Shown piece by piece: positions 13,282 to 32,030 of a stretch of DNA of 64,000 nucleotides. The notes beneath the pieces are model-generated. The model was given only the letters and a program-made list of their open reading frames with translations, ran no database searches and was not told the DNA's origin. A program made the position numbers and the translations under genes. Position 1 is the first letter of the stretch. Every line of letters begins with the position of its first letter. The stretch is taken from positions 2,542,001 to 2,606,000 of the forward strand of contig NZ_CP117812.1 of assembly GCF_028728065.1 (NCBI RefSeq), written 5' to 3'. This DNA comes from Lentisphaera profundi (lineage in GTDB: Bacteria > Verrucomicrobiota > Lentisphaeria > Lentisphaerales > Lentisphaeraceae).

Positions 13282-15714
13282 ATGAGATATTTAGCACTGC
13301 TTACACTTTTACTTACCACTCAGCTTTATGCTGAGAGACTTGACCAAACAAAACTCAATGTCGTTTTTATCACTTTAGATGACCTCAGTTATGAAAGCTT
13401 AGGCATCAATGGCTGCAAAGTTCCGGATATTTCACCAAATATGGATCGTATTGCCAATAGTGGTATGCGCTTCGAAGGTTTCCACGTTCAAGCCAGTAAC
13501 TGTATACCTTCACGCGCATTGATGATGACGGGTATGTATCAACAACATAATAAAATTTTCTCTTTGGGTAAAGCTGGTGCAGGCAACCAAATCATTCGCA
13601 ATACCCTACCCACAGTTTTCAACGACGCTGGCTATCACACAGGTATTATGGGTAAAAACTCCCACCACAACCCCTTTGACCCCTATACGGGTTTTGATGT
13701 AGAATACGACTCCTATGGCTCCACAAAATACCCCGCGAAAGTTTATGAAAAAACTAAACTTGCTATTGCGGACTCCTCTAAACTGAATAAACCACTTTTC
13801 TTTAATCTCAATATTTATGACCCCCACGTTGGTTGGTATGGCTGGTCTCGTACCGAAGGAACTGTAAAAGAAACAGAAAACCACCCAAGTCGTATTTACA
13901 CTCCCGATGAGATCCCCTACCCCTCATGGTTCCCTCCCCTTGCTGAAAAAGCAAAAACGGGTCCCAACAAGCGCAGTAAAAAAGATATCCACATCATGGA
14001 GGAAGTCACTGCCTATTACAATACCGTCAAACGTGCCGATGATTCGATTGGTCAAATGCTCCGTGCTTTTGATGAAGCAGGAATCACTCAGGACACCGTA
14101 TTCATCCTTATCTCGGATCACGGTGCTGAACTCCCTGGTGGAAAAACGACTCTTTATAATGAAGGCACTCATTCGCCGCTCTTCATTTCTTGGCCTGGTA
14201 TTACTAAGCCAGGTACCGTTCACAAGTCAGAACTTATTGGCTCTATCGACCTTTTGCCCACTTTCTGCGACATGCTCAATGAGCCTATCCCTGCGGATCT
14301 CGATGGTCGTAGTTTTCTCCCCATGATTTTGGGCCAAACTGAAAAAAATTGGCGACCCTTTGTCTATATCCAACAAAATGATCGCAATAAGGCTCGTGCC
14401 ATTCAAACAAAAGATGGCTATCTCTACATCGTCAATGCTTGGCATGGTGGCGAGACAAAATTCGGCTCTGTTTCTACTGGTACACTCACTTGGAATTTAT
14501 TTAAACTCGCACAACAAAGCCCGGAAAATGATCCTCTTGCTAGTGCTTGGATCAACAAACTTGAGTATCGTGTTCCTCATGAACTCTACGATATTAAAAA
14601 TGATCCATCTTGCTTTAAAAACTTAGTCCATGACCCTAGCTATAAAAATAAACTTCGCGAAATCCGCGAAACCATGATTCAAGAAGCCGAAATTAGCGGC
14701 GATCACATTGCGCTCGCCGCACTTCGTAATCCTGAGTCAGCCGAAGCTCGTGCTGAAACTGTGAACGCTATTGATGCCGACAAAGCTACGCGTATCTCCA
14801 ATCCTGACTATGCGCGTAGAGCTCATTATGATCCGTATGATGGTAGCTTAGTCCTCGATAATACTCTATTCGAAGGAGTTAGTGGCATCTGGAATGATTC
14901 CGCAAAAGGTCTCTCCCTTGAAACAAAAGGTGGTAGCAAAGAACTTGGACCTGGAGCACTTAAAGTCGACGGGAATAAATCCAATAGTATTCGCATTGAA
15001 ACATCTCGCTCTTTTAATGCTAGGCAATTTAATAATATCAAATTTGCCTTCACACTTAATACTCTCCAAGCACCCAAAGCTAAAAAATCCAAGGGCAAAA
15101 AAACTCAAACTCAGAAACTCGCTACACGCAAAGAAAAACGAGTAACGATCCCTAGCCCAAAAGGAAGTCTAAGTTTTGAATACAATAATGGCTCGGGATG
15201 GCAGTCATTAGAAAAAGCACCTTTAAGTAAATTTTTGAAAGAACAGAACTTAAGTTTTAAAAAACCAAAAAAGGGATTTAGTACCAAAACAAAGTTTGCA
15301 ATTAGTATCGACTTCACTTCTCCTGGAATCCTATATCTCGATGGCTTTCGCCTCGCTACTGATGTGGATTGGAAGTCTATTAAAACGCCGAATCAGCAAG
15401 TACTCAAAGCAGGAGAATCACTTGAATTGACTAGAGATTTAATTGACTTCAGCGAACTTGAAGTTAGCTATAATTTCTCTGCGGAAAAAGCTCAAGCTAA
15501 GTTTGTACTCGAATACTTTGATAAAGGAAAGTGGCTAGAGCTCAATTCCCATGATTATAAGTACGTACTCCAGGCAAACAAAAAATATGTGGCCTTCGCA
15601 AAAATCAAAGCAAAAAACATGCTCGGAAAAGAGCTGAAAGTTCGCTTCCGAAATCTCACTTCCGTCCCCGTGGAGATTAATGATCTACAAGTGCGGAAAC
15701 GATCTTCGATTTAG
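13282..15714 (+). CDS. exported sulfatase with long C-terminal extension
   Basis: A sulfate-ester hydrolase of the formylglycine type. A signal peptide covers residues 1-17 (MRYLALL... QLYA). The catalytic Cys C74 sits in NCIPSRALMMTG, the C-x-P-S-R motif that a separate enzyme converts to formylglycine. Metal-binding residues are visible as DD at 33-34 and SDHG near 277. Residues 1-500 cover the catalytic fold, which looks like heparan N-sulfatase or iduronate sulfatase relatives. About 300 further residues contain a Lys-rich linker (KAKKSKGKKTQTQK) and a beta-rich region of unknown function, perhaps for binding a polymer. The substrate cannot be assigned. Confidence 0.92.
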   Translation: MRYLALLTLLLTTQLYAERLDQTKLNVVFITLDDLSYESLGINGCKVPDISPNMDRIANSGMRFEGFHVQASNCIPSRALMMTGMYQQHNKIFSLGKAGAGNQIIRNTLPTVFNDAGYHTGIMGKNSHHNPFDPYTGFDVEYDSYGSTKYPAKVYEKTKLAIADSSKLNKPLFFNLNIYDPHVGWYGWSRTEGTVKETENHPSRIYTPDEIPYPSWFPPLAEKAKTGPNKRSKKDIHIMEEVTAYYNTVKRADDSIGQMLRAFDEAGITQDTVFILISDHGAELPGGKTTLYNEGTHSPLFISWPGITKPGTVHKSELIGSIDLLPTFCDMLNEPIPADLDGRSFLPMILGQTEKNWRPFVYIQQNDRNKARAIQTKDGYLYIVNAWHGGETKFGSVSTGTLTWNLFKLAQQSPENDPLASAWINKLEYRVPHELYDIKNDPSCFKNLVHDPSYKNKLREIRETMIQEAEISGDHIALAALRNPESAEARAETVNAIDADKATRISNPDYARRAHYDPYDGSLVLDNTLFEGVSGIWNDSAKGLSLETKGGSKELGPGALKVDGNKSNSIRIETSRSFNARQFNNIKFAFTLNTLQAPKAKKSKGKKTQTQKLATRKEKRVTIPSPKGSLSFEYNNGSGWQSLEKAPLSKFLKEQNLSFKKPKKGFSTKTKFAISIDFTSPGILYLDGFRLATDVDWKSIKTPNQQVLKAGESLELTRDLIDFSELEVSYNFSAEKAQAKFVLEYFDKGKWLELNSHDYKYVLQANKKYVAFAKIKAKNMLGKELKVRFRNLTSVPVEINDLQVRKRSSI

Positions 15715-15735: not shown

Positions 15736-16422
15736 CTAAATATTCTGAAGTTGAACCTTTATTTCATTAGCTTTGCGCTCGCTATATCGATCGACAAGAA
15801 ATTCAGCATTGTCTCTGAGGATGTAAGTCATGCGCATTAACTCCTCCATTACATCCACTACTCTATCCCTGTAGGAAGAATCCTTCATGGTTCCATCTTC
15901 ATTGAATTGTTCGTAGGCTTTCGCAACGGACGATTGATTCGGGATGGTGAACATTCTCATCCATCGACCTAGCACCCGCATATTATTAAGAGTATTAAAA
16001 CTCTGGGATCCACCACTGACTTGCATCAATGCCAAAGTTTTTCCTTGTGTTGGTCGTACCGCACCCATCGTCAAAGGTATCCAATCAATTTGAGTCTTCA
16101 TTAGTCCTGACATATTTCCGTGCAATTCAGGAGATGACCAAACTTGCGCTTCTGACCATAGACTTAAATTTCTTAACTCTTGAACTTTTTCATGCTCAAG
16201 ATTATGCTCCGAATCAAAAACAGGAAGCCCTGTCGGATCAAACAATTTCACATCTGCCCCCATATGAGTCAAAATTTGAGCTGCTTCTTCCGCCAATAAT
16301 TTCGAATAAGAACGCTCGCGTAGTGAGCCATATAAAATGAGGATGCGTGGAGCATGCTTTACTTTGAGTGAAGTATTGATGAGATTAAACTTCTCTTGCT
16401 TTAAGTAATCTGAATGTACCAT
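15736..16422 (-). CDS. arsH: ArsH-type NADPH-dependent FMN reductase
   Basis: The 228-residue flavodoxin-fold protein has the FMN-binding loop [12 protein letters not shown], then [23 protein letters not shown], both characteristic of ArsH. ArsH reduces or oxidises organoarsenicals and other electron acceptors with NADPH and FMN. No arsR, arsC or arsB is next to it, so an arsenic role is not supported by context. The gene is convergent with the sulfatase, 21 bases apart. Confidence 0.88.
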
Positions 16423-16726: not shown

Positions 16727-19700
16727 TTACAGGACGTAATGCTTCACAATTTCAGCATAGAGATCACCAACGCGATAGCCTTTTTCTTTAGTTGCTTCCA
16801 AAATAGCATCTAGTTTAGCTTCATCCTGTACACCAGGTTCCCGACTCGTCATATAACTAATTAGCTTTTTACTAAAAGCTCGAGCCATCAATGACTGAGA
16901 ATAAGACCCTAAGTAATCTTTTAACTTCGTAACATCTGTTACTTTTTGATCATTAATTTTTACTGGATCTGCTACGAAATGATTATTGTAACCACCAATC
17001 GAATCATATTTATCCATAAGGATTGCTAAAGAATCTAAACGCTTATGGCAAGAATTACATGCAGGATTTTGAGCGTGAACCTCGAGGCGCTCACGGAGCG
17101 TTCTTCCCGTTGAAGTATCTTCAAAGTCATTCACATCTACATCAGGAGGTGAAGGCAAGGGTGAGTCAAGAATATTTTCCGAAATCCATGCTGCTCGTTT
17201 AATCGGCAAAGGATCGACACCATTTCCTGTAGCGGTCAAGAAAGCACCCATACTCAGTATGCCTCCACGGTCTGCATTGCTAACATTCATCTTAATGAAC
17301 TGACCATCTTGAGACTGACCTTCAACGGCATCGACACCATAAAAATCGATAAGCTCTTTATCTAGGAAACTATAATCAGCTTTTACCAAGTCTACGATTG
17401 GTCGGTTCTCGCGGAACAAGTTGAGTAGGAAAAACTCCGCTTCTTGTTGTTGAAGTTCTTGTAAGTTATTTCGGTGATAATCCCGGAACTTCCCTTCATC
17501 AGGCAAATTATTACTAATTTCGCCCAGTTTCAGCCATTGATAAGTAAAGGCATTAGAAAAACGCCTAAAGTGATCATGTTGAATTAACCAATTACCCAAA
17601 CCTTTATAATCTTTCTTTTTGGCAGCTGTTTTATAGGTATTAATAAATTCTGCTGACGGCGGTGATTTATGGGTCATGTACGAAGTATAACGAATTTTTT
17701 CTTCTGCTGTTTTAGCTGCAGAATCCAAAATAAGGAATCGTGGTGACATAAAGAAAGTAATCATCGTATTGCGATAGGCATCTTCCATTTTCATTTTTTG
17801 TTTGCGTAAATCGCCAAACATATAAGTATAAATCACACTTAATTTCATGCCGTTAAAAGTATGAAGGAGCTTAAATTTCTCTCGCACTTCCATATCAATA
17901 ATTTTTTCTTTCTGCTGAAAAGACAAAGGATTCACATTTACATTAAAAGGACCCTCAATTTTTTGATCCCACATTTTAATATAGGGAAAATCATATTGTT
18001 TTCTATCCAAATAGGCCCGTGCTTCCTCTTGCTCTTTTTCACCAGCATCTTCACCATGCCTATGGTAAGCAAGCATACTCGCTAAACGATTACGCCCTAT
18101 TAAACTTTTCCAGTCTAGAGCAAAAGACACACCTGATCGACGCTTAATCTCAAACTCAATGCCATAATCTCCTTCCGAAGAAATTTCCATTGTCTCTAAA
18201 TATTTAAGTTTTGCAAAGGGATCTGCTGTCCCAGGCGGTTCTAAATAAAAACGTACGGGCATGGTCAAATTATCATTCTCTTCAAATAACTGCTCATAGT
18301 CAGACACAATGGCTTCACCATATTTTTCTTTGGTGATCTTACTCATGGACATATTTTCGCAACTAGCTTTAAAGGTCAGTTTATAAGTCCCAGGTGGCAA
18401 TGAACGTGCGGCCAACATTTTGTTAACGACCTGATTTTCATTCGCATCTAAATAACGATCTTGTTTGCTTTCTTTTTTCTCTGAAAGATCTTTGAAATCC
18501 AAAGAACAATACCATCTAGGATTATATTGCGGCCATCGCACATTAGTTTCATTTCCAAAAGTTCTAACCGCAAAAGGTGTACTCGGAAATTTAACTGATT
18601 GATTCAACGGATCTAATTGCGGACGAAGCCCGATGAAACTCTGTAACATATCGTAAAGTATGTTGTAATAGTTACTGATGTAATGAGGACTCAAAATTTT
18701 CCGCTGATGCGTGTAGAAACTCTTTTCAGAATAGGATTGGTGCATTGATACTACAGGATTGTACTGAGAATAGTCGATGTCAAAAAGGTCGCCCAAAGTA
18801 TTTTGGACCTCGTAAGGAGTCATAACTCGTGTCGTCACGCCTTCTTTCAAATCATCAAACATCATTTTTATCGATGCTAAAAGCAATTCCTGCTCTTCTT
18901 TTTCTAAGGGAATAGAATCCGGCTCATCCTCAACGGGAGGAGGCATTTCGCCTTTATTGATACTGCGGTATATTTTTGCCCAAGTTTTTGAGTTTGTAGA
19001 TTTGGAAGCCATTAAACGCGCAATATTAAAGTCTCCTTCCGCTTCTTTACCTTCAGCACCATGACAGCTTACACACTTAGTTTTCAAGACTTCATTAAAG
19101 CTATAATGTTTAAGTTCCCCAGTAAAAAAACCATCTTCTTCGGGCTGAAAAAAATTCTCCGGTTCTTCTGGTTCTTCTTTTTTAGGTGCCTCTACAACAA
19201 CTTTTGGCTTGGGTTTTGGCTTGGGTTTTGGCTTCTCTTTTTTGGGAACTATTTTTGGCTTATTTTTTTCTGCTAGTTCCGCTTGTTGTTGCTTGATAAA
19301 AGAGATCGCATCCTTAAAGAAGAAGCCTCCGACTGCGAGTACCAAAACCAGAATACAAAGACCTACAGGGAAAGGTTTTTTCTTTTTAGCTCGTGGCGCT
19401 TTTGTTGGAACCCTTAATTTTTTCTTTGATTTAGAGCGTAACTGAGTTTTTTTACTCTTCTGCTGTCCCACTCTTGCTTCTGGTTTTTTTCTTTGTGGAG
19501 TGGCTTTAATTGTGCGTTCTTGCTGACTTGCCTTGCTTTCATCTTGAATCGCTGAAGCTTTATTCGACGTCACAGTTTTGAGTTTGTCTTGAATCTTTCC
19601 GGATTCATTTTCTTTGGGCGATAGTTTTGGTAAATCGTCTAGTGAAGGCTCCATCCTTGATACTGGAATGATTATGGGACTAGAAGTCTCCGTGATCTGA

Positions 19701-19948
19701 TGCTGTGCTTGTTCAGCTTTAAATGCTCTCTCTAAAGCTCTTCCTTCATTTAAAATAGCCTCAACTTCAGCCATGGCTGCATTTAATAAAGCTTCCGTTT
19801 GGTCTTTCGCAATGAGTCCCTGGCCAATTTGTTCTTCTAGAACTTCAAAAGCTTGTAATTTTTCACGTAATTGCTGCTTGAGCTCGGGACTGAGCATAGG
19901 GATGGAATCTTGCCCTCCAGAAGAGGGTGTATCGTTATCATTTATCAT
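16727..19948 (-). CDS. membrane-anchored c-type haem protein with PSD/PSCyt (DUF1587/1592/1588/1585) domains
   Basis: A 1073-residue protein. Residues 15-80 form a helical region and 150-195 are Lys/Arg-rich. One membrane helix lies at 194-212, with positive charges before it, so the N-terminus is cytoplasmic. A Lys-Pro linker (KPKPKPKPK) follows, then a haem site CVSCH at 292-296 (planctomycete cytochrome). The middle holds the DUF1587/1592 regions. The end holds a DUF1588-type block with a second haem site in NPACNSCHKRLDSLA and a DUF1585-type tail. These proteins always keep company with DUF1552 partners and their biochemical role is unknown. It is 9 bases after its DUF1552 partner. Confidence 0.88.
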   Translation of the reverse strand: MINDNDTPSSGGQDSIPMLSPELKQQLREKLQAFEVLEEQIGQGLIAKDQTEALLNAAMAEVEAILNEGRALERAFKAEQAQHQITETSSPIIIPVSRMEPSLDDLPKLSPKENESGKIQDKLKTVTSNKASAIQDESKASQQERTIKATPQRKKPEARVGQQKSKKTQLRSKSKKKLRVPTKAPRAKKKKPFPVGLCILVLVLAVGGFFFKDAISFIKQQQAELAEKNKPKIVPKKEKPKPKPKPKPKVVVEAPKKEEPEEPENFFQPEEDGFFTGELKHYSFNEVLKTKCVSCHGAEGKEAEGDFNIARLMASKSTNSKTWAKIYRSINKGEMPPPVEDEPDSIPLEKEEQELLLASIKMMFDDLKEGVTTRVMTPYEVQNTLGDLFDIDYSQYNPVVSMHQSYSEKSFYTHQRKILSPHYISNYYNILYDMLQSFIGLRPQLDPLNQSVKFPSTPFAVRTFGNETNVRWPQYNPRWYCSLDFKDLSEKKESKQDRYLDANENQVVNKMLAARSLPPGTYKLTFKASCENMSMSKITKEKYGEAIVSDYEQLFEENDNLTMPVRFYLEPPGTADPFAKLKYLETMEISSEGDYGIEFEIKRRSGVSFALDWKSLIGRNRLASMLAYHRHGEDAGEKEQEEARAYLDRKQYDFPYIKMWDQKIEGPFNVNVNPLSFQQKEKIIDMEVREKFKLLHTFNGMKLSVIYTYMFGDLRKQKMKMEDAYRNTMITFFMSPRFLILDSAAKTAEEKIRYTSYMTHKSPPSAEFINTYKTAAKKKDYKGLGNWLIQHDHFRRFSNAFTYQWLKLGEISNNLPDEGKFRDYHRNNLQELQQQEAEFFLLNLFRENRPIVDLVKADYSFLDKELIDFYGVDAVEGQSQDGQFIKMNVSNADRGGILSMGAFLTATGNGVDPLPIKRAAWISENILDSPLPSPPDVDVNDFEDTSTGRTLRERLEVHAQNPACNSCHKRLDSLAILMDKYDSIGGYNNHFVADPVKINDQKVTDVTKLKDYLGSYSQSLMARAFSKKLISYMTSREPGVQDEAKLDAILEATKEKGYRVGDLYAEIVKHYVL

Positions 19949-19957
19949 TGGATTCGC

Positions 19958-21172
19958 TTAGGCCTTAAACAACTCAGGAATTACCTGCTTACTGTTACTA
20001 AAATTACTGTTACTAAAACCACTCTGTTTCAAGATACTAGAAAACATGTCTGAAGTTGAATAAATATGCTTTTTCCCATCTAAGCAGGCAATGGATTCTT
20101 TATGGGCGAAACCACCTCCAAACAGAAACGCTGGAGCTTTTTTATTCGTGTGTTTTCCTGCATATGCCATGCCACAGTGAAAGAGTACGATGGTATCATC
20201 ATATAAACCACCTTCTTTCAACTTGTGAAGAAAATTCTTCACGCCATTTAACACGCCTTGGTCAATGGTCTCCAATCCGTAAATTCGCTCAGGATATCCA
20301 CCGTGGTGAGTATTAGCGTGATGACCCAGTTCAACGCCTGCAAGACCCGCATTTAAACCTCGGCTCCCAAACTCTACTAAGGCAATCTTAGTTTGCTTCT
20401 TTTCTAATGCATCGTAAACCAAGTTAAAGTTATTATGGCAAGAAGGGATGGGTTGCTTTTCCTCATTTTCGCCAAAAGATTTTTTTAGGTAGGGCTTTTT
20501 AACTTTGAGCCATTTTTCTCGTTCATCTAAAACTCCTAGTTGGTAATCCAAGGATGCTCTCATGTCTTCTTCTTGAATATTCCCGCGCCAATAACGTCGC
20601 AAATTACGTGCTAAAGTCGACAAAATATCGCGCTCACGTTCAATCCTTGCCTTTTCACGCTTTTCATCTGTACGAGAAAATAAACTTTCGTATAAATTAT
20701 TGGCTCCACTAATCGCTGGCAAAGGTTGTTCAAATTTATTCCACGACATGCTTGAGCCACCATTGATTCTATGGTAAAGGAATTTATGTCGTGTTTCTTG
20801 AACTGATCCATCTGCTAAAACTTGGTCGAGGCTCGTCATTTTCTTATCGGGATAATGTTCTCTATCTTCATAAGGTATCGTGGTAAAAGTCGCGGGCTGA
20901 CATTCATGACTACCCGTCATGTTTTTTTCAGAAATCCCGTCAAAATAAGTCATTTGACCTTTAAATTCGGAGAAAATTTCTGTCATATACTTACATGAGG
21001 ACCCATTGTCTTGAAAATTCGGTGCATAAAGGCCCAAATCAAGACTTACGAGGACGACATTTTTCTTGAGATTAACTCTTGGCTCTATTCTCTTTGTCGC
21101 GGCAGAAAGGGTATTTGCTTGCAACATGGCTCCAGCTGCAGTGGCGGCTATAAACGATCGGCGGTTTATCAT
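19958..21172 (-). CDS. DUF1552 (HxxSHH) protein with twin-arginine-type signal
   Basis: A 404-residue exported protein. NRRSFIAATAAGAML at the start looks like a Tat signal, ending near LSAA. The domain-defining motif HxxSHH appears as HANTHH, with Thr for Ser, in VELGHHANTHHGGY. Other conserved-looking segments are GSSCKYMTEIFSEF, GSHECQPATF and DDTIVLFHCGM. The family is widespread in Planctomycetes and almost always sits with DUF1592 haem proteins. It resembles alkaline-phosphatase-fold proteins, but its activity is unknown. It heads the minus-strand operon and has a paralogue at 23191. Confidence 0.9.
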   Translation of the reverse strand: MINRRSFIAATAAGAMLQANTLSAATKRIEPRVNLKKNVVLVSLDLGLYAPNFQDNGSSCKYMTEIFSEFKGQMTYFDGISEKNMTGSHECQPATFTTIPYEDREHYPDKKMTSLDQVLADGSVQETRHKFLYHRINGGSSMSWNKFEQPLPAISGANNLYESLFSRTDEKREKARIERERDILSTLARNLRRYWRGNIQEEDMRASLDYQLGVLDEREKWLKVKKPYLKKSFGENEEKQPIPSCHNNFNLVYDALEKKQTKIALVEFGSRGLNAGLAGVELGHHANTHHGGYPERIYGLETIDQGVLNGVKNFLHKLKEGGLYDDTIVLFHCGMAYAGKHTNKKAPAFLFGGGFAHKESIACLDGKKHIYSTSDMFSSILKQSGFSNSNFSNSKQVIPELFKA

Positions 21173-21645
21173 TTCATTCTCCAGGTTCTTTATCTAAAAT
21201 AACGCATAAGGACTCAAAATATTATACCAACGCGGTCCTTTTAACTATATTTATAACAAGCTATATACATAGATCGCTACAAATTTGAGCAATTTATAAG
21301 CATGATTTTAATTTTTATGTACAAGTCTACTACAAAGCTATACGCTAGACTTAACACGAAATTACTTATCTTGTTACAAATCTTATGCTAAAATGACTTA
21401 AAAAAAAGTAAATGCCTCTAATTATAGAGTCGCCTTATCAAGATTTCCGATAGGCAGCTTGGAGAAATTATAGCTCTCATACAAGATGGATGCTCCTCTT
21501 ATCTAATGTCCTAAACTCTGACTGCATAAGTTCAGCCTTTAGATATAAATCATGAATAATCGTGGTTTATTAATTGATCCTGACACTTTTTGGATCTGGC
21601 GTGCGTATTACTCATTATGATGACAATTTATTATTGAGGTTTCCG
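21173..21645. other. divergent intergenic region without a supported gene
   Basis: About 470 bp separate the minus-strand DUF1552 gene from the plus-strand sulfatase. The sequence is AT-rich and must hold promoters for both directions, but I could not pick convincing -35/-10 pairs. A 22-codon frame from ATG 21552 overlaps the sulfatase start region and lacks support. Confidence 0.5.
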
Positions 21646-23037
21646 TTGCGCTATCTAGTTCTTCTCTTTCTTATTTCACTACTTTCCTATGGAGTGGAAA
21701 AGCCGAATTTTATTATTATCCTCGCAGATGATATGCCCTATAATGCACTTAGCTATACGGGGAGTCCGGAAGTAAGAACGCCCCATATAGACAGTCTCTT
21801 TGAACAAGGTTTAGCTTGTCCACAAGCCTATGTGACCCACGGTGTCTGTGCTCCTTCACGAGCTGGACTAATGACCGGGCGCTATCAGGCTCGCTTCGGC
21901 TATGAAACGCTGAGTGGATCTCCAAGTCATGCCGCGAAAGTTGATCATGGTGTGGATATCAATGAAATTACGATTGCCCAGCTTTTGAAGACTGCAGGCT
22001 ATACCTCTGCGGCCTTGGGTAAATGGCATCTGGGTATAAATAAAAAGTATCAGCCCTTGCAACGCGGCTTTGATCATCAGTTTGGTTTTGCCGGCGGTGG
22101 CGGGCCTTATTACGACCCAAAAACAAGATCTCATGGACTCATTCGCAATGGCCAGCCTGCCCCTTGGCCTGAAGGGGCTTACCAAACCGACCTCATGGCA
22201 CAAGAAGCTGAGGATTGGATGAAATCAGTAGCAGGCAAACCTTTTTTCCTCTACTTTGCGCCCTACGCAGTACATGCTCCCTTTGAAGCACCTCCTGAGC
22301 TAATTCCTGAAGGGAAGCACCCCATGGTAGGCATGATGAAGAGCTTGGATATGGCCGTTGGCCGTATTTTAAAAACGGTAGAGGAACTAGGTCAGCGTGA
22401 CAATACAATTATTGTTTTTTTAAGTGATAATGGAGGCGTACCAAAGGTTTTTGAACATGGTTTTACCAATGCACCTTTTAGGGGAGGCAAAGCCACTGTC
22501 TTAGATGGGGGAGTTCACGTACCTTTTACTTGCTATTGGCCAGGTAAAATTGAAGGAAATGAATATCTTGGAATTGTTTCGAGTCTTGACCTACTGCCCA
22601 CTTTTGCTGCCGCGGCAGGCATCAGCCTTCCTAATGACCGCGATTATGATGGTGTAAACTTACTGACACAGCTTCAGAGAAAACAAAAAGCGGATAAGAA
22701 GCGCACGCTTTACTGGCGGTGGCGTAATGGTCATGCCGTACGTGAGGGCAAGTGGAAGTTAGTATGGGAAATAAATTGGGGGGAATTTCATCATTTGCGA
22801 AATAAGCAAAACTTAAAGAATCCATCACCCACTTTACGTCCTAATCCCAATGATCGTTTTTCATCGCTGTATTTTAAGCCTCAGCTCTATAATCTAGAAA
22901 ATGACCCAAGTGAAAGTAAGGATTTATCCTCTCAATACCCTGAAATCATGGAGAGACTTAAAAAGAAACTCAAATCCTTTGACGCTATTGCCAAGCCCCT
23001 AAGTAAAGAAGAACTCGCAGCCTGGCCTCAGCCTTAG
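21646..23037 (+). CDS. exported sulfatase
   Basis: I place the start at TTG 21646 (463 residues), because GAGG lies 6 bases upstream and the product then opens with a clean signal peptide (MRYLVLLFLISLLSYG). A TTG at 21574 is in frame but gives a longer leader with no Shine-Dalgarno. The formylglycine Cys C68 is in CAPSRAGLMTG. Metal-ligand DD occurs at 28-29 and SDNGG later. The sequence resembles arylsulfatase A-type and N-acetylgalactosamine-sulfatase proteins. It stands between two mirror-image DUF1552/DUF1592 pairs and is probably co-transcribed with the plus-strand pair. Confidence 0.9.
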   Translation: MRYLVLLFLISLLSYGVEKPNFIIILADDMPYNALSYTGSPEVRTPHIDSLFEQGLACPQAYVTHGVCAPSRAGLMTGRYQARFGYETLSGSPSHAAKVDHGVDINEITIAQLLKTAGYTSAALGKWHLGINKKYQPLQRGFDHQFGFAGGGGPYYDPKTRSHGLIRNGQPAPWPEGAYQTDLMAQEAEDWMKSVAGKPFFLYFAPYAVHAPFEAPPELIPEGKHPMVGMMKSLDMAVGRILKTVEELGQRDNTIIVFLSDNGGVPKVFEHGFTNAPFRGGKATVLDGGVHVPFTCYWPGKIEGNEYLGIVSSLDLLPTFAAAAGISLPNDRDYDGVNLLTQLQRKQKADKKRTLYWRWRNGHAVREGKWKLVWEINWGEFHHLRNKQNLKNPSPTLRPNPNDRFSSLYFKPQLYNLENDPSESKDLSSQYPEIMERLKKKLKSFDAIAKPLSKEELAAWPQP

Positions 23038-23190
23038 ATTTACCTAAAAATGATAAAATATTGCGCCCGCATAATGGGCCATATTTTATACTTAACGATA
23101 GCTGACAAAGTTTTAGCCGAAAAACATTTTTAACTTGTCATATTTCCTACTTGCTGTGGCGTATTAGTATGAAAATGAGGAAGATATAAA

Positions 23191-24402
23191 ATGAAGAGAC
23201 GTGATCTTATTAAAATGGCCGCCCTGGCTCCGTTTATCCATTCGAACACTTTGCAGGCCAAAGTAAAAGATACGATTCGGGTAAAATTAAAAAAGAATAT
23301 TGTATTAGTTAATTTGGATCTCGGGCTGTATGCACCCCATTTTCGTGATGGCGGATCTTCCTGCAAATACATAACCGAAATTTTCTCCGAATTCAAAGAT
23401 CAGATGACTTATTTTGACGGTATTTCAGAGCCTGGAATGGGTGGTGGTCACGAATGTCAGCCAGCCAGTTTTACCGCTTTAAAATATGAAGATCGCGAAC
23501 ATCATCCCGATCGCGTGATGATGAGTTTGGATCAACGTCTTGCGGAAGGTTCGATCCAAGAATCGAGGCATAAATTCATTTACCATCGAGTCAATAATGG
23601 CTCGAGTATGAGTTGGAACAAATTTGAACAACCACTGCCCGCAGTACAGGGTGCCAATGCTTTGTATGAACAGCTATTTGCACGCACGGATAGCAAGACG
23701 GATAAAGCTAGAATCGAACGAGAGCGAGATATTCTTGCGGCTTTAGCAAGAAATTTTCGTCGTTACTGGACTGGAACAGTTCAAGAACAGGATATGAAGG
23801 CGTCTTTGGAACATCAAATAGCGATTTTATCCGAACGCGAAAAATGGTTAAAGGTGAAGAAGCCTTATATGAAAAAGACTTTTGGTGAAAATGACGAAAA
23901 AAATCCTCTCCCTTCCTGCTCAAATAATTATGAGCTAGTTTATCAAGCTTTGGAGAAACAGCAGACCAAAATTGCCTTTATGCAGTTTGGTGGTTCAGGC
24001 TTACAACGTGGGATGAATGGTATAGACTTAGGACATCACGGAAATACCCATCATGCGGGTTATGCTGAAAGAATCCGAGCATTAGAGCTGATTGATGGCA
24101 AAGTCCTTGGAGAGCTTAAAAGGTTTCTTCATCGATTGAAAGAAGGTAATCTCTACGACGACACCATTGTTTTATTTCACTGTGGTATGGGCGATGCAGG
24201 TGCCCATGACCCAAGACGAACCGCCTCATTTTTATTTGGAGGGGGCTTTCAGCATAAAGAATCAGTAGCCTGTCTAAGAGCTAAAAATGATCATATCTAT
24301 TCTACCTGTAATTTATTTTCAAGTGTCTTAAAACAGAGCGGATTTAATGATATTGCTTTCAATAGTAGTAAGACTGTAATTCCAGAACTTTTTAAAGCTT
24401 AG
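23191..24402 (+). CDS. DUF1552 (HxxSHH) protein, paralogue of the 19958 gene
   Basis: The 403-residue product matches the 404-residue protein at 19958-21172 over its whole length (for example GSSCKY-TEIFSEFK, RIERERDIL, REKWLKVKKPY, TVIPELFKA against QVIPELFKA). The signal is MKRRDLIKMAALAPF, again Tat-like. The HxxSHH motif reads HGNTHH. A GAGGAAG Shine-Dalgarno lies before the ATG. Its stop (TAG, 24400-24402) lies 10 bases before the ATG of the DUF1592 gene. Function unknown, as for its paralogue. The sulfatase upstream is 153 bases away. Confidence 0.9.
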   Translation: MKRRDLIKMAALAPFIHSNTLQAKVKDTIRVKLKKNIVLVNLDLGLYAPHFRDGGSSCKYITEIFSEFKDQMTYFDGISEPGMGGGHECQPASFTALKYEDREHHPDRVMMSLDQRLAEGSIQESRHKFIYHRVNNGSSMSWNKFEQPLPAVQGANALYEQLFARTDSKTDKARIERERDILAALARNFRRYWTGTVQEQDMKASLEHQIAILSEREKWLKVKKPYMKKTFGENDEKNPLPSCSNNYELVYQALEKQQTKIAFMQFGGSGLQRGMNGIDLGHHGNTHHAGYAERIRALELIDGKVLGELKRFLHRLKEGNLYDDTIVLFHCGMGDAGAHDPRRTASFLFGGGFQHKESVACLRAKNDHIYSTCNLFSSVLKQSGFNDIAFNSSKTVIPELFKA

Positions 24403-24412
24403 GGTGCTGAAT

Positions 24413-27400
24413 ATGAGTGAAGAAAAGCAAGAAAATGATGCCATTCCAATGATGAGCCCCGAACTCAAAGAAGAATTACGTCAGAAGATCGCCGACTTAG
24501 AAAAACTTGAGTTGGCCATTACTGCAGGAGAAATTCAAACGGAAAATACCGAAGCTTTATTAAATGAAGCCATGAAGGCAATTGAAGACTTATTGGAGAG
24601 AGCACGGAAAGAAGAAGAAGCATATCTCTTAGCTCATGAAACTGATGATTTAAAAGAGCTCACAGTATTAAAATCTACTCCAAGTGCGGCTGTGAAGCAA
24701 TTCTCTACCGAACAAGTGAATATTGCTGAAAATGAAACTAATTCTTTGGATAAAATTGATGGAAATTTGAAAAGTGAACGCCTTGCTAAAGATAATTCAT
24801 CTAACTCTAAACCCGCCAAGCCTTCACCAACTAAACGGCGCAAAATGACTTCAAAGAAAAAACTTAGCGTTCCCACAAAACGTCCAAGAGCAAAAAAGAA
24901 AAAATCATTGCCTATGGGCATGATCAGTTTAGTTTTAATCCTTGGAGCAGGTGCTTATTTTTATCAGGATATTATGGGCTATGTAAAAAAACAGCAAGCT
25001 GAACTGGCTGAAAAAAACAAGCCAAAAATAGTTTTAAAAAAAGAGATACGCAAATCTAAACCAAAACCGCAAAAAGTCGCTCCCGTCATTGTAGAACCGA
25101 AAGAAGAACTAACTGAGCCAGAGAATTTTTTTCAACCAGACGAAGAACTTCTTTTTACAGGTGAACTCAAACACTTTAGTTTCAATCAAGTCTTGAGAGA
25201 TAAATGTGTGACTTGTCATGGCGCTGAAGGCAAAGAAGCGGAAGGAGACTTTAATATCGCCCGTTTAATGACTTCAAAATCATTAAATCAAAAGTCATGG
25301 GCCAAAATTTATCGCAGTATTGATAAGAAAGAAATGCCTCCACCTATTGAAGACGAACCTGATTCAATTCCTTTAGAAAAGGAAGAACAAGGTCTACTGC
25401 TAGCTTCGATTAAAGTCATGTTTGAAGATTTAAAAGAGGGTGTGACAACTCGTGTTTTAACACCTTATGAAATCCAAAATACTTTAGGCGATCTCTTTGA
25501 TATAGATCATAGTATGTACAATCCCTTCAAGGCTTTGCGCCAAGCTTATTCAGGAGCCAATTTTTATAGCCATCAGCGCAAGGTACTGAGTCCCCATTAT
25601 GTCAGTCAATATTACAATATTTTGTATGATGTCTTACAGAGTTTTATTGGCTTGCGTCCTCAAGTTGATAAGATGGATACTGTAACAAGTCTTCCTGGTT
25701 CTGTCTATGCCGCAAAGGCATTCAAGGGGGAAACTCATTTGCGCTGGCCACAAAAAAATCCTAAGCTTTTTACCGGCTTTGATATTAAAGATATCACGGA
25801 ACGTAAACAAACAAAACAGGAGCGCTATTTAGATGGCAATGAGAATGCTCTGGTTAATGAAATATTGGCAAAGCGCACCTTGCCTCCTGGCACTTATAAG
25901 TTGACCTTTAAAGCCAATACAGAGAATATGTCAATGACAAATATAACTGAATATAAGTATGGTCCTGAAGTTGTCCGTTTATATGAAGATTTTTTTGATC
26001 GCAATCAAAACCTTAGCCTGCCAGTACATTTTCACCTCGAGCCGCCCGATTATGCCGACCCTTTTGCCAAAGTCAAATTTTTGGACACTATGGATATCTC
26101 TTCTGAAGGTGAATATGGTATTGAGTTTACCATTAATCGTCGTACCGCTCTCGCCTGTAACATGACATATAAGATGCCAAGTCAGCAGCAGCTTGCTAAT
26201 TTGATCTCCTATCATAAGCATGGAGATAAGCACGAGAATAAAACAGTGCAGATTGAAATGGCCAACTTGGGTAAAAAAGCGTATGATTTCCCTATGGTAA
26301 AAATGTGGGATTTCAAAATTGAAGGCCCTTATAATGTGAAGCTCAATCCGCTATCTTTTGAGCAGGACACGAAAGTCAATGATATGGAAGTTCGAGAAAA
26401 GTTTAAGTATTTACATACTTTTAATGGCATGAAGTTAAGTGTGATTTATACCTATATCTTTAGCGGCTTTCGCAAAGAAAAAATGAAATATGAAGACGCA
26501 TATCGCAATGCAATGATTATGTTTTTTATGTCTCCCAAATTTTTAATCTTGAATAGTGAAGCCAAAACTTTTGATGACAAAGCTCGTTACTTATCTTATG
26601 CGACACAAAAATCTGCTCCCACAGATGAACTTATTCAAGAATATAAAAAAGTTCTCAAAAGTGGTGATACTAAATATTTAGGCACATGGTTGATTAAGCA
26701 TGATAGGTTCACACGTTTTATTGAAGCTTTTACCTATCAATGGCTTAAGCTTGGAGAGATCGAAAATAACATGCCGGATCAAGGTAAATACAGGGAGTAT
26801 TACAAGCAAGATTTAGGTCCTATGCAGCAACAAGAAATTGAACTTTTCATGACCCACATGTTTAAAGAAAATCTTCCCATTTCCGACTTGGTGAGTTCCG
26901 AATATTCTTTTTTAAATGAGACCCTTGCGAATTTTTATGGAACGAATAACCGTGATAGCTCTTTAGCAAGTAATGACTTCCACAAAGTAAAAGTTACTGA
27001 TGTCAACCGCGGTGGAATCTTTAATATGGGCGCCTTTTTGACGGCGACAAGCAATGGCGTCGATCCCCTGCCCCTTAGGCGTGCTGCTTGGATTTCTGAA
27101 AATCTACTTGATTCACCTTTGCCCTCTCCTCCAGATGTCGATGTTAATGACTTCGAAAATAAAGTGAGCGGACGGACCCTCAGTGAACGCTTGGCTGTCC
27201 ATGCGGAAAATCCCGCCTGTCATTCCTGTCACAAACGCTTGGATTCTCTTGCCATCTTAATGGATCAATATGATTCGATTGGAGGCTATAATTCAGACTT
27301 TACCGCCGAGCCAGTTAAAATTAATGATCAAAAAATCCGGGGTCTTGATGACTTAAAAACTTATATGGGCAACTATTCCAAGCCCATGGCGAGAGCTTTT

Positions 27401-27547
27401 ACGAAGAAATTAATTAGCTTTATGCTCGGTCGCGAGCCCGGCGTTCAAGATGAAGCTAAGTTAGACGCTATTTTACTTGAAACCCAAGCCGATAATTATC
27501 GCATCGGCGATCTCTATGCCGCCCTTATTAAACAGTATTTCTTATAA
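24413..27547 (+). CDS. membrane-anchored c-type haem protein with PSD/PSCyt domains, paralogue of the 16727 gene
   Basis: The start is ATG 24413 (1044 residues), with AGGG 8 bases upstream; a GTG at 24404 is also in frame. The domain order copies the 16727 protein. It has an N-terminal helical region with MMSPELKEELRQK, a Lys/Arg stretch, a membrane helix near 165-185, the haem site CVTCH at 265-269, DUF1587/1592 regions, a second haem site in NPACHSCHKRLDSLA, and a DUF1585 tail. High similarity extends along most of the protein but differs around the linker. As with the other copy, electron transfer in the periplasm is likely and the substrate is unknown. Confidence 0.88.
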   Translation: MSEEKQENDAIPMMSPELKEELRQKIADLEKLELAITAGEIQTENTEALLNEAMKAIEDLLERARKEEEAYLLAHETDDLKELTVLKSTPSAAVKQFSTEQVNIAENETNSLDKIDGNLKSERLAKDNSSNSKPAKPSPTKRRKMTSKKKLSVPTKRPRAKKKKSLPMGMISLVLILGAGAYFYQDIMGYVKKQQAELAEKNKPKIVLKKEIRKSKPKPQKVAPVIVEPKEELTEPENFFQPDEELLFTGELKHFSFNQVLRDKCVTCHGAEGKEAEGDFNIARLMTSKSLNQKSWAKIYRSIDKKEMPPPIEDEPDSIPLEKEEQGLLLASIKVMFEDLKEGVTTRVLTPYEIQNTLGDLFDIDHSMYNPFKALRQAYSGANFYSHQRKVLSPHYVSQYYNILYDVLQSFIGLRPQVDKMDTVTSLPGSVYAAKAFKGETHLRWPQKNPKLFTGFDIKDITERKQTKQERYLDGNENALVNEILAKRTLPPGTYKLTFKANTENMSMTNITEYKYGPEVVRLYEDFFDRNQNLSLPVHFHLEPPDYADPFAKVKFLDTMDISSEGEYGIEFTINRRTALACNMTYKMPSQQQLANLISYHKHGDKHENKTVQIEMANLGKKAYDFPMVKMWDFKIEGPYNVKLNPLSFEQDTKVNDMEVREKFKYLHTFNGMKLSVIYTYIFSGFRKEKMKYEDAYRNAMIMFFMSPKFLILNSEAKTFDDKARYLSYATQKSAPTDELIQEYKKVLKSGDTKYLGTWLIKHDRFTRFIEAFTYQWLKLGEIENNMPDQGKYREYYKQDLGPMQQQEIELFMTHMFKENLPISDLVSSEYSFLNETLANFYGTNNRDSSLASNDFHKVKVTDVNRGGIFNMGAFLTATSNGVDPLPLRRAAWISENLLDSPLPSPPDVDVNDFENKVSGRTLSERLAVHAENPACHSCHKRLDSLAILMDQYDSIGGYNSDFTAEPVKINDQKIRGLDDLKTYMGNYSKPMARAFTKKLISFMLGREPGVQDEAKLDAILLETQADNYRIGDLYAALIKQYFL

Positions 27548-27695: not shown

Positions 27696-29884
27696 TTATT
27701 CGAGTAGGCTATCAAAGTTTAGTTCTTCCACATAGAACCATCCTACGGTAGGAATTGAGCTAAAACCGATAAGACGAGTTTGACCATCCTGTTCAAGTTT
27801 TATCTGTCCGGATTTTTGTGAAATAATGGAGTTTATCAAGTGTGGATAAGGAAATTCTTTAAACTGGATCTCCTCCTGCGTTTTCTCTGCTTCGGCTAAA
27901 TTAGACATCTCTTTTAAATTACTCAAAATCACCTTTCCTTCCTTATTCATGAGGTAGCGATTTTTGATGATGCCAGTGCGTTTATCTGCAGCTGCGTCCA
28001 TAATTGTATTGTAGGCATAGTCAAAAGTAATATCTATTGCTGATACCCCTAAAAACTTATCCTCTTTGGAGTACAAGGGTTGCACTGCCGAGACCACTAA
28101 ACCCTGACCAAAAAGGTCAATATAAGGAGAACTCCAAAACAGCTTTTGATGAGTCAAGGAATGCTTAAACCAAAAGCGTGATCTCACATCATAAGCTTCG
28201 CTAAGTTTGCCCATCCCTGGATAATTCACTAATAAGCCATTGGCTAAACCTGAATAGACCCAACGAATGGCAAAGCCTTTATTTAGAGCCAACTCCTCAA
28301 GCTCTTCAACAGTCGTATCTTCCTTAAGGTTGGCACCGCTTTCCGCCATGTACGCTAAGGTATCATCAATAATCGGTGATAGTGCCAAAAGCTCTTTGCG
28401 AGTATCCTTAAGCTCTAAACCAGGTGCCAATTTATAATTTCCCGACTTCACACTAACTTCGTGACCATAAAGTGCAGAAGGCACGAGGCCCACAATATTA
28501 TCTTTTTTATTTTTATAGTCCTTATAATCATAAAATCGCAGGGTCTGATTTTTTTGTCTCGGCGACTCAAGCAGATATTTTACTTTGTCTCCGTAGCGCT
28601 GCAATACATTCGATAACTTAGAAAAGTGCCCATCTATATGTCCTGCACGTTGCTCCAAAGCACTCTGAAAGTTAATGAGTGTTAACTCCCTCTGTTGCGC
28701 TAACTGAATGGATTTCTTTTGCTGAACTAAAGAGCTTATCGTGATCGCAGCAAAAATAAGTAGTAGGCTGAGAACTGATAACGCCGTTGCCATTTTATGC
28801 TTGTAGAGCGAACGGACGACGGCACGTGAGAAATTATCTTTATAAGCGACTGTTTCTCGATCCTGTAGGAAATTGTTAATATCATCAGCTAGCAGCGCAA
28901 CATTTTCATAACGATTTTCCGGGTCATGAGCCATGGCTTTGGCAATAATAGCTCTTAGCGCTGTAGGGATTTTGATCTCACTACGCAGATGCCTCAAAGG
29001 ATTTAACTGTGCTCTAATTGTCTTCTCTAAGAGCTCTTTTTCATTTGAACCGTCTATGTGTGCACTCAGAGTCACTAACTGAAATAAGATTGCTCCCATC
29101 GCGTATTGATCCGAAGCAAACTGCACTTGTCCAGTCAAAATATATTCCGGTGCAATAAAACCTGGTGTTCCAGAAACTGAACCTTTACTTTTAGCCTCTT
29201 TAGCTACAGTCTTTTCTTGCTTTTCTGTGACAATTTTAGCAATACCCCAATCCATCAGGTACACTTCATTAAAGGAACCCACCATAATATTCTCGGGTTT
29301 TAGATCCCGGTGAATCACTCGCTTATCATGTGCGTAGGAAATGGCTTCACATATCTTGATGAAATAGGAAAGGCGCTCACTCAAGGATTTTTGCTCGAAA
29401 TCTAAAAGCGCTTTACCTTTTAACTTTTTACATTCCAAAAGATGATCATCAATGATTTCCTGCAAAGTCATGCCCTGAACAAGTTTCATTGCCATGTGGA
29501 CATAAGAATTCTGTTCACGAATAATTCCGTACATCGGAATTATTGAGGGATGATCCAACTGCGCCGTAATTCGCGCTTCTAAAATAAAATTACGATTGCA
29601 GGATTATCAAGAAAATCTTTTTTGAGTGATTTTAACGCTACATAACGATGGAGCTTTTTGTCTTTGGCAGTTTTAATCTCTCCCTGACCGCCCTCACTGA
29701 ATTTCTCAATCTCTCCAAATAAGGACTCGAGTTCGTCATAGAAATCCAAGCCACCATCATCATGTTTATCCAAGTATTCCGTATTCGAAACTATCGTATT
29801 GAATCGGCTATTAAAATTCGAACTGATTTTCTCTCGAGCCTCATCATTAAACTCCTCATCGGCAACAATTGTCTTCTGTATCAT
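27696..29884 (-). pseudogene. Ser/Thr protein kinase with C-terminal Cache domain, disrupted by a frameshift
   Basis: Two adjacent minus-strand frames are one gene. The first (29884-29579) holds a regulatory N-terminus and the kinase N-lobe (glycine loop FSEGGQGEIKTA, VALK lysine) and stops at TAG 29581-29579. The second resumes at ILEARITAQLDHPSI in the -1 frame with HRDLKPEN (D85 from Met 29558), MDWG in place of DFG (D103), GTPGFIAPE, a membrane helix near 248-270, and an extracytoplasmic Cache domain ending YVEELNFDSLLE. One missing base in an AATTTTATTTT tract (about 29582-29592) explains it. This could be a real mutation, a read error or a slippage site. Confidence 0.85.
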
Positions 29885-30170: not shown

Positions 30171-31268
30171 ATGGAAATGTATAACTCAAAAACGAAATAT
30201 CATTGTGGAATTGACCTTCACAAGTCATCTGCTCATATTTGTGTCATGGACAAGGAAGGAAATATAATGCTGCATAAAAACATCCGAGATAATAATTTTG
30301 TCTATATGAAGAAGGTCTTGGCGCCTTATGTCGATGACCTCACTATTGCTTGTGAGAGCACTTATAATTGGTACCCTCTTGCAGATTTTTGTCGTTCAGA
30401 GAATATTGAATTCACTCTTGGTCATGCGCTCTATATGAAATCTATTCACGGAGGAAAAGCTAAAAACGATAAAATTGATAGCAAAAAAATCACTGATTTA
30501 TTACGCACGAATTTATTGCCTCACGCCTATGCTTGCCCAGCAGAATACCGCTCTCATAGAGACCTCTTACGAAGGCGTATAAAGTTAGTGCAGTCCAAGT
30601 CTGGAATATCAGTCTACATGAATATTTTTGAGCAACAAAACGAGCTAAAAGAAAGTACTTTATACATGAGGTCAAAACCAGATAAACTAGAAAGTCTAGT
30701 AGAACATCAGGACTTTTCTGGGATAGGTGGCATCGCGATGGAACGGAACTATCAGCTCAACACAAATCTATTGATGGCTTATACAAAAGAGTTGATCGCA
30801 GTGGATAAAGATCTCAAAGAATTCACTTTAAATAGTGCCTACAATGAAGAATTTGAAATAGTAAAGTCAATGCCTGGAGTAGGCGATACCCTTGGTATGG
30901 TCATTATCTATGAAACTCACGACATCAAAAGGTTTAAAAGCCCAGGTAAGTATTCAAGTTATTGTCGAGTGATTAAATGTAAAAAAGAAAGTGCGGGTAA
31001 AAGTTATGGTTATAGTGGAGCAAAAATAGGTAATCCATTTTTAAAATGGGCCTATAGTCAGGCTGCCGTACTATCAAAAAGAAACCCTTTGATGAAAGCT
31101 TTTTCAAATGACCTAATAAGGCAACACGGCGAACGTAAAGCTAGAGCTATTTACACTCATAAGATTTGTCGATCAATTTATTTCATGCTCCAGAGAAAAC
31201 AAAAATTTGATCCCATTGATTTTTTTGGAAGACAAAAATATGAACGTTTACAAAGACTAAATAATTAA
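30171..31268 (+). CDS. IS110-family transposase
   Basis: A 365-residue recombinase with an N-terminal DEDD RuvC-like domain and C-terminal Tnp20 domain. Visible catalytic residues are Asp in GIDLHK, Glu in CESTYNW, and Asp residues in KNDKIDSKK. The Tnp20 part begins about IVKSMPGVGDTLG, followed by FKSPGKYSSYCRV and a conserved-type Ser region near KKESAGKSYGYSGAK. In IS110-family elements the enzyme is guided by a noncoding bridge RNA. The frame is intact. It could also start at the second ATG (30177). Confidence 0.93.
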   Translation: MEMYNSKTKYHCGIDLHKSSAHICVMDKEGNIMLHKNIRDNNFVYMKKVLAPYVDDLTIACESTYNWYPLADFCRSENIEFTLGHALYMKSIHGGKAKNDKIDSKKITDLLRTNLLPHAYACPAEYRSHRDLLRRRIKLVQSKSGISVYMNIFEQQNELKESTLYMRSKPDKLESLVEHQDFSGIGGIAMERNYQLNTNLLMAYTKELIAVDKDLKEFTLNSAYNEEFEIVKSMPGVGDTLGMVIIYETHDIKRFKSPGKYSSYCRVIKCKKESAGKSYGYSGAKIGNPFLKWAYSQAAVLSKRNPLMKAFSNDLIRQHGERKARAIYTHKICRSIYFMLQRKQKFDPIDFFGRQKYERLQRLNN

Positions 31269-31723: not shown

Positions 31724-32030
31724 TGTCACCTTTATCCCGTGGGCTTTTCATCGCCTCCCAGGGTGGGCACACCCTGCAGGGAAGGGGACGGAGTCCCAAG
31801 GCTGCAAGCAAAACATAAAGGGCGCTGGAAACCGCCTAACTCCAGCGGGGAGGTGCTGCCACACAGGCGAAAAAATCTCCTGTCACCTTGATCCCGTGGG
31901 CTTTTCATCGTCTCCCAGGGTGGGCACACCCTGCAGGGACGGGGTCCCAAGGCTGTAAACAAAACATAAAGAGTGCAGGAATCCTGCATCACTCCAGCGG
32001 AGATTAAAAATCTCCTGACCCCTATTATCT
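31724..32030. repeat. two tandem copies of a ~157-bp GC-rich repeat
   Basis: Copy one (31724-31880) and copy two (31881 to about 32030) both begin TGTCACCTT, share CCCGTGGGCTTTTCATCG and a CAGGGTG-GGCA-CACCCTG hairpin, and both end near AAAATCTCC. The middle segments differ. The repeat is much richer in G and C than its surroundings. Copy one ends with a 13-base segment (31857-31869) whose complement occurs twice at 63379 and 63555, so this belongs to a dispersed family. Open frames across it look spurious because they run on both strands through repeats. Confidence 0.9.

Follow-up and report, generated by a model that had tools for sequence, protein, structure and literature searches.

Haem proteins of the DUF1592 type can carry interchangeable cytoplasmic domains, an unusual feature and the part of the locus described here that is worth following. 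The mirror-image arrangement of two DUF1552–DUF1592 gene pairs at this locus is an ordinary paralogous array that has undergone local rearrangement. Some PVC-group genomes contain dozens of such pairs; to our knowledge, none has a known function or enzyme activity, and literature searches returned no functional study of either family.

Gene content of the locus

The two pairs, A and B, lie in a 64,000-nucleotide stretch of Lentisphaera profundi DNA (the window), which belongs to a 5.46-Mb genome of two contigs in the genus Lentisphaera. The original prediction, made from the sequence alone, had placed five genes here, and all five open reading frames are found in that order and at those positions (Table 1). 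Within each pair the genes are adjacent on the same strand, separated by 9 bp (A) and 1 bp (B), and the two pairs are divergently oriented on either side of a sulfatase gene. No promoter-like matches above chance were found in the divergent intergenic region.

Table 1. Features of the locus (window positions) and of haem protein A (residues)
Feature	Position	Strand	Basis or remark
DUF1592-type dihaem protein A, 1073 aa	16727..19948	-	ORF, Pfam, model
Cytoplasmic N-terminal helical module of A, coding part	19724..19948	-	dN/dS, model
DUF1552 (HXXSHH) protein A (HxxA), 404 aa, RR (Tat-type) signal	19958..21172	-	ORF, Pfam, model
Divergent intergenic region, HxxA to sulfatase	21173..21645	.	
S1 sulfatase, CAPSR site	~21646-23037	+	ORF, Pfam; judged incidental to the pairs
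DUF1552 (HXXSHH) protein B (HxxB), 403 aa	23191..24402	+	ORF, Pfam
DUF1592-type dihaem protein B, architecture as A, likely start ATG 24413	24404..27547	+	ORF, Pfam
A: cytoplasmic helical hairpin	residues ~20-84		
A: free linker, then basic stretch	between hairpin and signal anchor		
A: signal-anchor helix	residues ~193-211		
A: Pro/Lys linker	between signal anchor and PSCyt1		
A: PSCyt1 putative haem site CVSCH	residues 292-296		
A: CBM-like beta sandwich	residues ~450-668		model
A: PSD4, PSCyt3, PSD2, in this order	after the sandwich		
A: PSCyt3 second putative haem site CNSCH	residues 964-968		

Origin of the mirrored layout

As predicted, the paralogues are alike along their whole length, with identities far above chance in whole-length alignments (60% between the haem proteins and 68% between the DUF1552 proteins). 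The further proposal that they were duplicated by inversion is not supported by the syntenic place in two sister genomes, where it is marked by a sulfatase gene (window 13282-15714) and an FMN reductase gene (15736-16422). The array there contains three DUF1552–DUF1592 pairs in Lentisphaera marina (G001) and four in G002; all pairs of both arrays share one orientation, and no sulfatase lies between the pairs in either sister.

Maximum-likelihood trees group window A with the A proteins of the sisters (support 100/100 for the haem proteins and 94/93 for the DUF1552 proteins) and window B with their B proteins (95/96 and 100/98), and the main groups agree between the haem-protein and DUF1552 trees. 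The window paralogues thus match their sister orthologues better than each other, the outcome that had been named as evidence against a locus-level unit, and the divergence of A from B predates the species and indeed the genus. Together with the single orientation of the sister arrays, this grouping indicates that the mirrored layout is secondary and particular to the species of the window. From these sequence comparisons, the window pairs appear to descend from a tandem array as ancient paralogues, with the remaining pairs apparently lost or moved, and with B brought into the opposite direction by a local rearrangement. An IS110-type transposase gene at 30171-31268 is a possible agent.

The intervening sulfatase

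The gene between the pairs encodes an S1 sulfatase by both profile (186.9 bits in Pfam) and the CAPSR site in its translation. Its closest relatives, 44-45% identical, lie elsewhere in its own and the sister genomes, and the nearest solved structures in sequence are carrageenan sulfatases (E 6e-75). Similar neighbourhoods are on record, since PSCyt genes of unknown function, some with CBM domains, lie near sulfatases in freshwater Verrucomicrobia (PMC5615132). The similarity to carrageenan sulfatases and these neighbourhoods favour the original view of the locus as a unit for using sulfated polysaccharides, duplicated by inversion, in which the sulfatase is a working part. So does a comparison of 195 genomes of the phylum, in which those with DUF1592 have a median of 51.5 sulfatase candidates and those without have 7 (Mann-Whitney P 4e-6), a comparison that uses first-look candidates as a proxy and ignores genome size and kinship.

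However, the sulfatase is missing from the sister arrays, and none occurs between two pairs in the other neighbourhoods of the window subfamily (loci L056-L073). With 150 of 251 candidates scored, the sulfatase matches in this genome number at least 151, and a sulfatase within 5 kb of a DUF1592 gene is found in 8 of 24 cases against 4.6 expected from circular shifts (P=0.08), which is near chance. A terminator-like hairpin, itself a single match not above chance, separates the sulfatase from HxxB across a gap of 153 bp. Moreover, DUF1592 matches are absent from seven genomes that are rich in sulfatases (95-168 candidates). We therefore reject a locus-level association on the strength of the other neighbourhoods, distant relatives and chance proximity. 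Since the paralogues also match other copies better than each other, the supposed unit is a coincidence; that reading is largely refuted and we consider it highly improbable, and the sulfatase between the pairs looks like a local accident. At the genome level, a tie of DUF1592 to sulfatase-rich lifestyles retains weak support.

DUF1552 proteins are predicted to have a sulfatase-type fold

Both DUF1552 proteins match the HXXSHH profile (PF07586) at 82.8 and 80.3 bits, against a cut-off of 30. They share with the family at large this profile, the three-histidine HxxxHH motif, an RR signal and an adjoining DUF1592 gene, but the window subfamily is divergent and low-scoring (80-84 bits, compared with 148-290 for 20 other members in the genome). 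The histidines H285, H289 and H290 are invariant in 20 homologues. The HxxTHH variant noted in the original prediction is indeed present in both proteins, although it is not special to them: among these homologues the position of the Ser is occupied by T, S, G or another residue, with T also in some further members in the genome, so the Ser is not a defining feature. The RR pair is invariant in the subfamily and present in all 22 N-termini of DUF1552 proteins that were recovered from the genome's other loci, every full-length case seen is of the RR type, and the genome encodes TatC.

The structure model of DUF1552 protein A (pLDDT 86.9, pTM 0.87) adopts a predicted alkaline-phosphatase/sulfatase-superfamily fold. 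Its best Foldseek matches in the PDB are lipoteichoic acid synthases (LtaS), carrageenan and choline sulfatases, and YejM, and the best of these (E 1.6e-6, prob 1.00) has a TM of about 0.41, which is a moderate overlap; DUF1552 profiles searched against PDB sequences gave nothing significant. The DUF1552 protein lacks the CxPSR signature of S1 sulfatases, and a stretch resembling the sulfatase metal motif 'SDNG' reads 'HCGM' by eye. Invariant or nearly invariant residues are Asp45 (about 90%), His89, His285, His289, His290, Asp304 and His341. Among the conserved residues of 20 aligned DUF1552 proteins there is no clear Ser, Thr or Cys nucleophile and no conserved formylglycine motif of the form C/S-x-P/A-x-R. 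By its place in the sequence order, His89 may occupy the position of the nucleophile.

Architecture of the haem proteins

The domains PSD4 (DUF1592), PSCyt3 (DUF1588) and PSD2 (DUF1585) score well above their Pfam cut-offs in A and B. PSCyt1, with a cut-off of 22, is just above it in A (26.2) and just below it in B (21.5), giving four of four domains over the cut-off in A and three of four in B. The N-terminal anatomy is as originally described: in both haem proteins a Lys-rich N-terminus precedes a single hydrophobic stretch, and two CxxCH sites are present. Both sites are invariant in 21 homologues, and these motifs suggest that A and B could be loaded with covalent c-type haem. The haem-protein model (pLDDT 70.6) includes a central beta sandwich. 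A fold search with the whole protein returned only weak CBM-like matches to it (E 0.007 and up, above E 0.001), among them a hyaluronan-binding module and modules of CBM4/16/22/29. PDB sequence searches with DUF1592 profiles gave nothing significant. Taken together, the export signals, CxxCH sites and folds support the earlier description of the pairs as exported redox-type proteins.

The domain order PSCyt1/PSD4/PSCyt3/PSD2, one CxxCH site each in PSCyt1 and PSCyt3 and the pairing with DUF1552 are all shared with the Planctomycete-specific cytochromes (PF07635, PF07631, PF07627, PF07624; PMC5615132). In contrast to these, the window proteins have a signal anchor and a cytoplasmic module in place of an ordinary signal peptide and a CBM-like sandwich in mid-protein, and PSD3 and PSD5 go undetected by Pfam. 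Cbp2D of Cellvibrio japonicus, a DUF1587-bearing cytochrome protein with a haem domain capable of reducing LPMOs (PMC8981238), may be regarded as a functional analogue only.

Swappable cytoplasmic N-terminal modules

The genome encodes 24 DUF1592 proteins, and in half of these a long N-terminal part with one main hydrophobic stretch precedes the first haem site. Three of these 12 (A, B and the protein of a pair at C2:1493750-1498025) have the helical hairpin, which occurs nowhere else in this genome. Two have FHA N-termini (56 and 61 bits, cut-off 20.7), and the other seven have Cys-rich, zinc-ribbon-like N-termini recognized mainly by Cys pattern, with Pfam scores below cut-off. In homologues of the window subfamily from a related genus (G004, G005), the same haem body is preceded either by no more than a short Lys-rich tail or by a zinc-ribbon-like motif and then a kinase-like domain (E 5.6e-6 against PDB kinases; E 0.003 with Pfam alone), although the catalytic Asp is not visible by eye in two of the three kinase-like N-termini. 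No cytoplasmic module was seen in other families of the phylum, where the approximately 45 DUF1592 proteins inspected have signal peptides only, a sample that is small and includes high-GC genomes with uncertain ORF starts. Long N-terminal ORF extensions in the high-GC relatives L146, L148 and L149 were judged to be start-site artefacts and not modules.

The hairpin of the window proteins is modelled as two helices (21-42 and 48-84, pLDDT about 80-86). Between sisters its dN/dS is 0.08-0.15, compared with 0.03-0.05 for the body and a much freer linker following it, which indicates a coding sequence that purifying selection maintains. The N-termini of A and B contain no domain that Pfam scores above cut-off, FHA and Ser/Thr kinase domains included; their module is a private helical hairpin. 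A weak match of B's N-terminus to MapZ (E 0.006, well under the cut-off) was rejected as low complexity. The cytoplasmic N-terminus that had been singled out as unusual is thus borne out as a modular, selected feature.

It could be argued that these N-terminal parts are plain anchors that only tether and space an enzyme at the inner membrane, with modules that are either neutral or serve just to position the protein in the cell. The other half of the 24 paralogues manage with an ordinary signal peptide and no module, and some close homologues (L065-L067) have only a short Lys-rich tail, as such a role would allow. Nevertheless, purifying selection on the hairpin and the several distinct recognizable domains that occupy the same place argue against this explanation, which we regard as unlikely.

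Another possibility is that the proteins are signal transducers, in which the periplasmic haem and DUF1552 parts sense redox state or a glycan and the cytoplasmic module reports to a Ser/Thr kinase network. FHA and kinase-like modules do come from the phospho-signalling toolkit, they vary on a conserved haem body, and the genome has about 105 kinase-domain matches. Relatives of the window proteins resemble single-pass membrane FHA/kinase signalling proteins in having a cytoplasmic domain (FHA, zinc-ribbon or kinase-like), one membrane helix and a periplasmic domain. They differ in having a dihaem DUF1592 protein on the periplasmic side, and the window members have the private hairpin instead. 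That hairpin matches no Pfam signalling domain, a long unconserved linker separates it from the membrane and, evolving freely, speaks against a rigid signal path, and kinase genes are not enriched beside the pairs (P 0.22 within 5 kb and 0.24 within 8 kb; P 0.02 only at 12 kb). We consider such signal transduction unlikely. Equally unlikely is its broader form, that the Lentisphaeraceae turned a periplasmic dihaem family into single-pass receptors, with haem- and carbohydrate-binding DUF1592 outside and swappable FHA, pseudokinase, zinc-ribbon or hairpin modules inside feeding periplasmic redox or glycan state into Ser/Thr phospho-signalling.

By eye, kinase genes and sigma-factor-sized genes seemed to recur as neighbours of the pairs (in the window and at L058, L060, L065 and L066). 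A conserved partnership with them was rejected, with kinase proximity at chance within 5 and 8 kb, and the neighbourhoods of the pairs yielded no conserved gene for a cytoplasmic partner.

A proposed role for the pairs

We tentatively favour, at somewhat less than an even chance, a membrane-tethered periplasmic redox complex that acts on carbohydrate and has a cytoplasmic regulatory or docking module, the mirror arrangement and the sulfatase being accidental. Each pair would form one such complex. The DUF1552 protein would be exported folded through Tat and contribute an alkaline-phosphatase/sulfatase-type fold with a His-rich site, and the DUF1592 protein, tethered to the inner membrane by its N-terminal helix, would provide a carbohydrate-binding-like domain together with two sites for c-type haem. 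The most likely activity of such a complex would be the oxidation or some other modification of a periplasmic sugar or oligosaccharide, and the haems would pass the electrons on. The cytoplasmic module that many of these haem proteins have in Lentisphaeraceae may dock to, or be regulated by, a cytoplasmic partner.

These results offer two handles on the function of the pairs: the predicted sulfatase/phosphatase-superfamily fold of DUF1552, and the presence of known binding domains on the cytoplasmic side of the haem proteins. The FHA and kinase-like domains in particular are handles for finding partners. Should the cytoplasmic modules prove to signal, these proteins would represent a novel class of membrane receptor based on haem; should the modules do no more than regulate or position the enzyme, they would still indicate where it works and with what.

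Gain and loss of DUF1552–DUF1592 pairs

One zinc-ribbon-type DUF1592–DUF1552 pair is present as near-identical tandem copies (neighbourhood L077), the product of a recent duplication within the same genome. The L. profundi genome itself retains a truncated DUF1552 remnant of the window subfamily, and one of its relatives has a DUF1592 gene that has decayed, so such arrays lose members as well.

Adjoining the rearranged side of the window locus is an IS110 family transposase gene, whose NCBIfam score of 133.5 bits falls slightly below the cut-off of 140. The window also carries a direct repeat (95% identity over 64 nt and 86% over 49 nt). The Ser/Thr kinase gene at 27696-29884 is probably a pseudogene, because a frameshift near 29560-29580 breaks its reading frame into an N-terminal piece (29579-29884) and a remainder (27696-29558).

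Features of the window and of compared genomic neighbourhoods (L-handles)
Feature	Location	Strand
Zinc-ribbon-type DUF1592–DUF1552 pair, tandem copies	L077 2623-6977, 8985-13339	
Truncated DUF1552	L092 3847-4350	+
Decayed DUF1592	L073 7915-9170	+
IS110 transposase	window 30171-31268	+
Direct repeat, two copies (~110 bp in all, spacing ~150 bp)	window 31724-31984	
Ser/Thr kinase, Cache-like sensor region	window 27696-29884	-
Zinc-ribbon-like motif, degenerate protein kinase, DUF1592 dihaem body	L068 7437-10982	-
Same	L071 7010-10474	+
Same	L072 6641-10144	+
N-terminal FHA domain, membrane helix, DUF1592 dihaem protein	L088 4858-7803, 9380-12352	both -

Kinase-like and FHA-bearing dihaem proteins

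In the three kinase-like fusions, one membrane helix joins the zinc-ribbon-like/degenerate kinase part to the dihaem body. The two FHA-type proteins are neighbours, and they are the best candidates for tracing a putative phospho-dependent partner.
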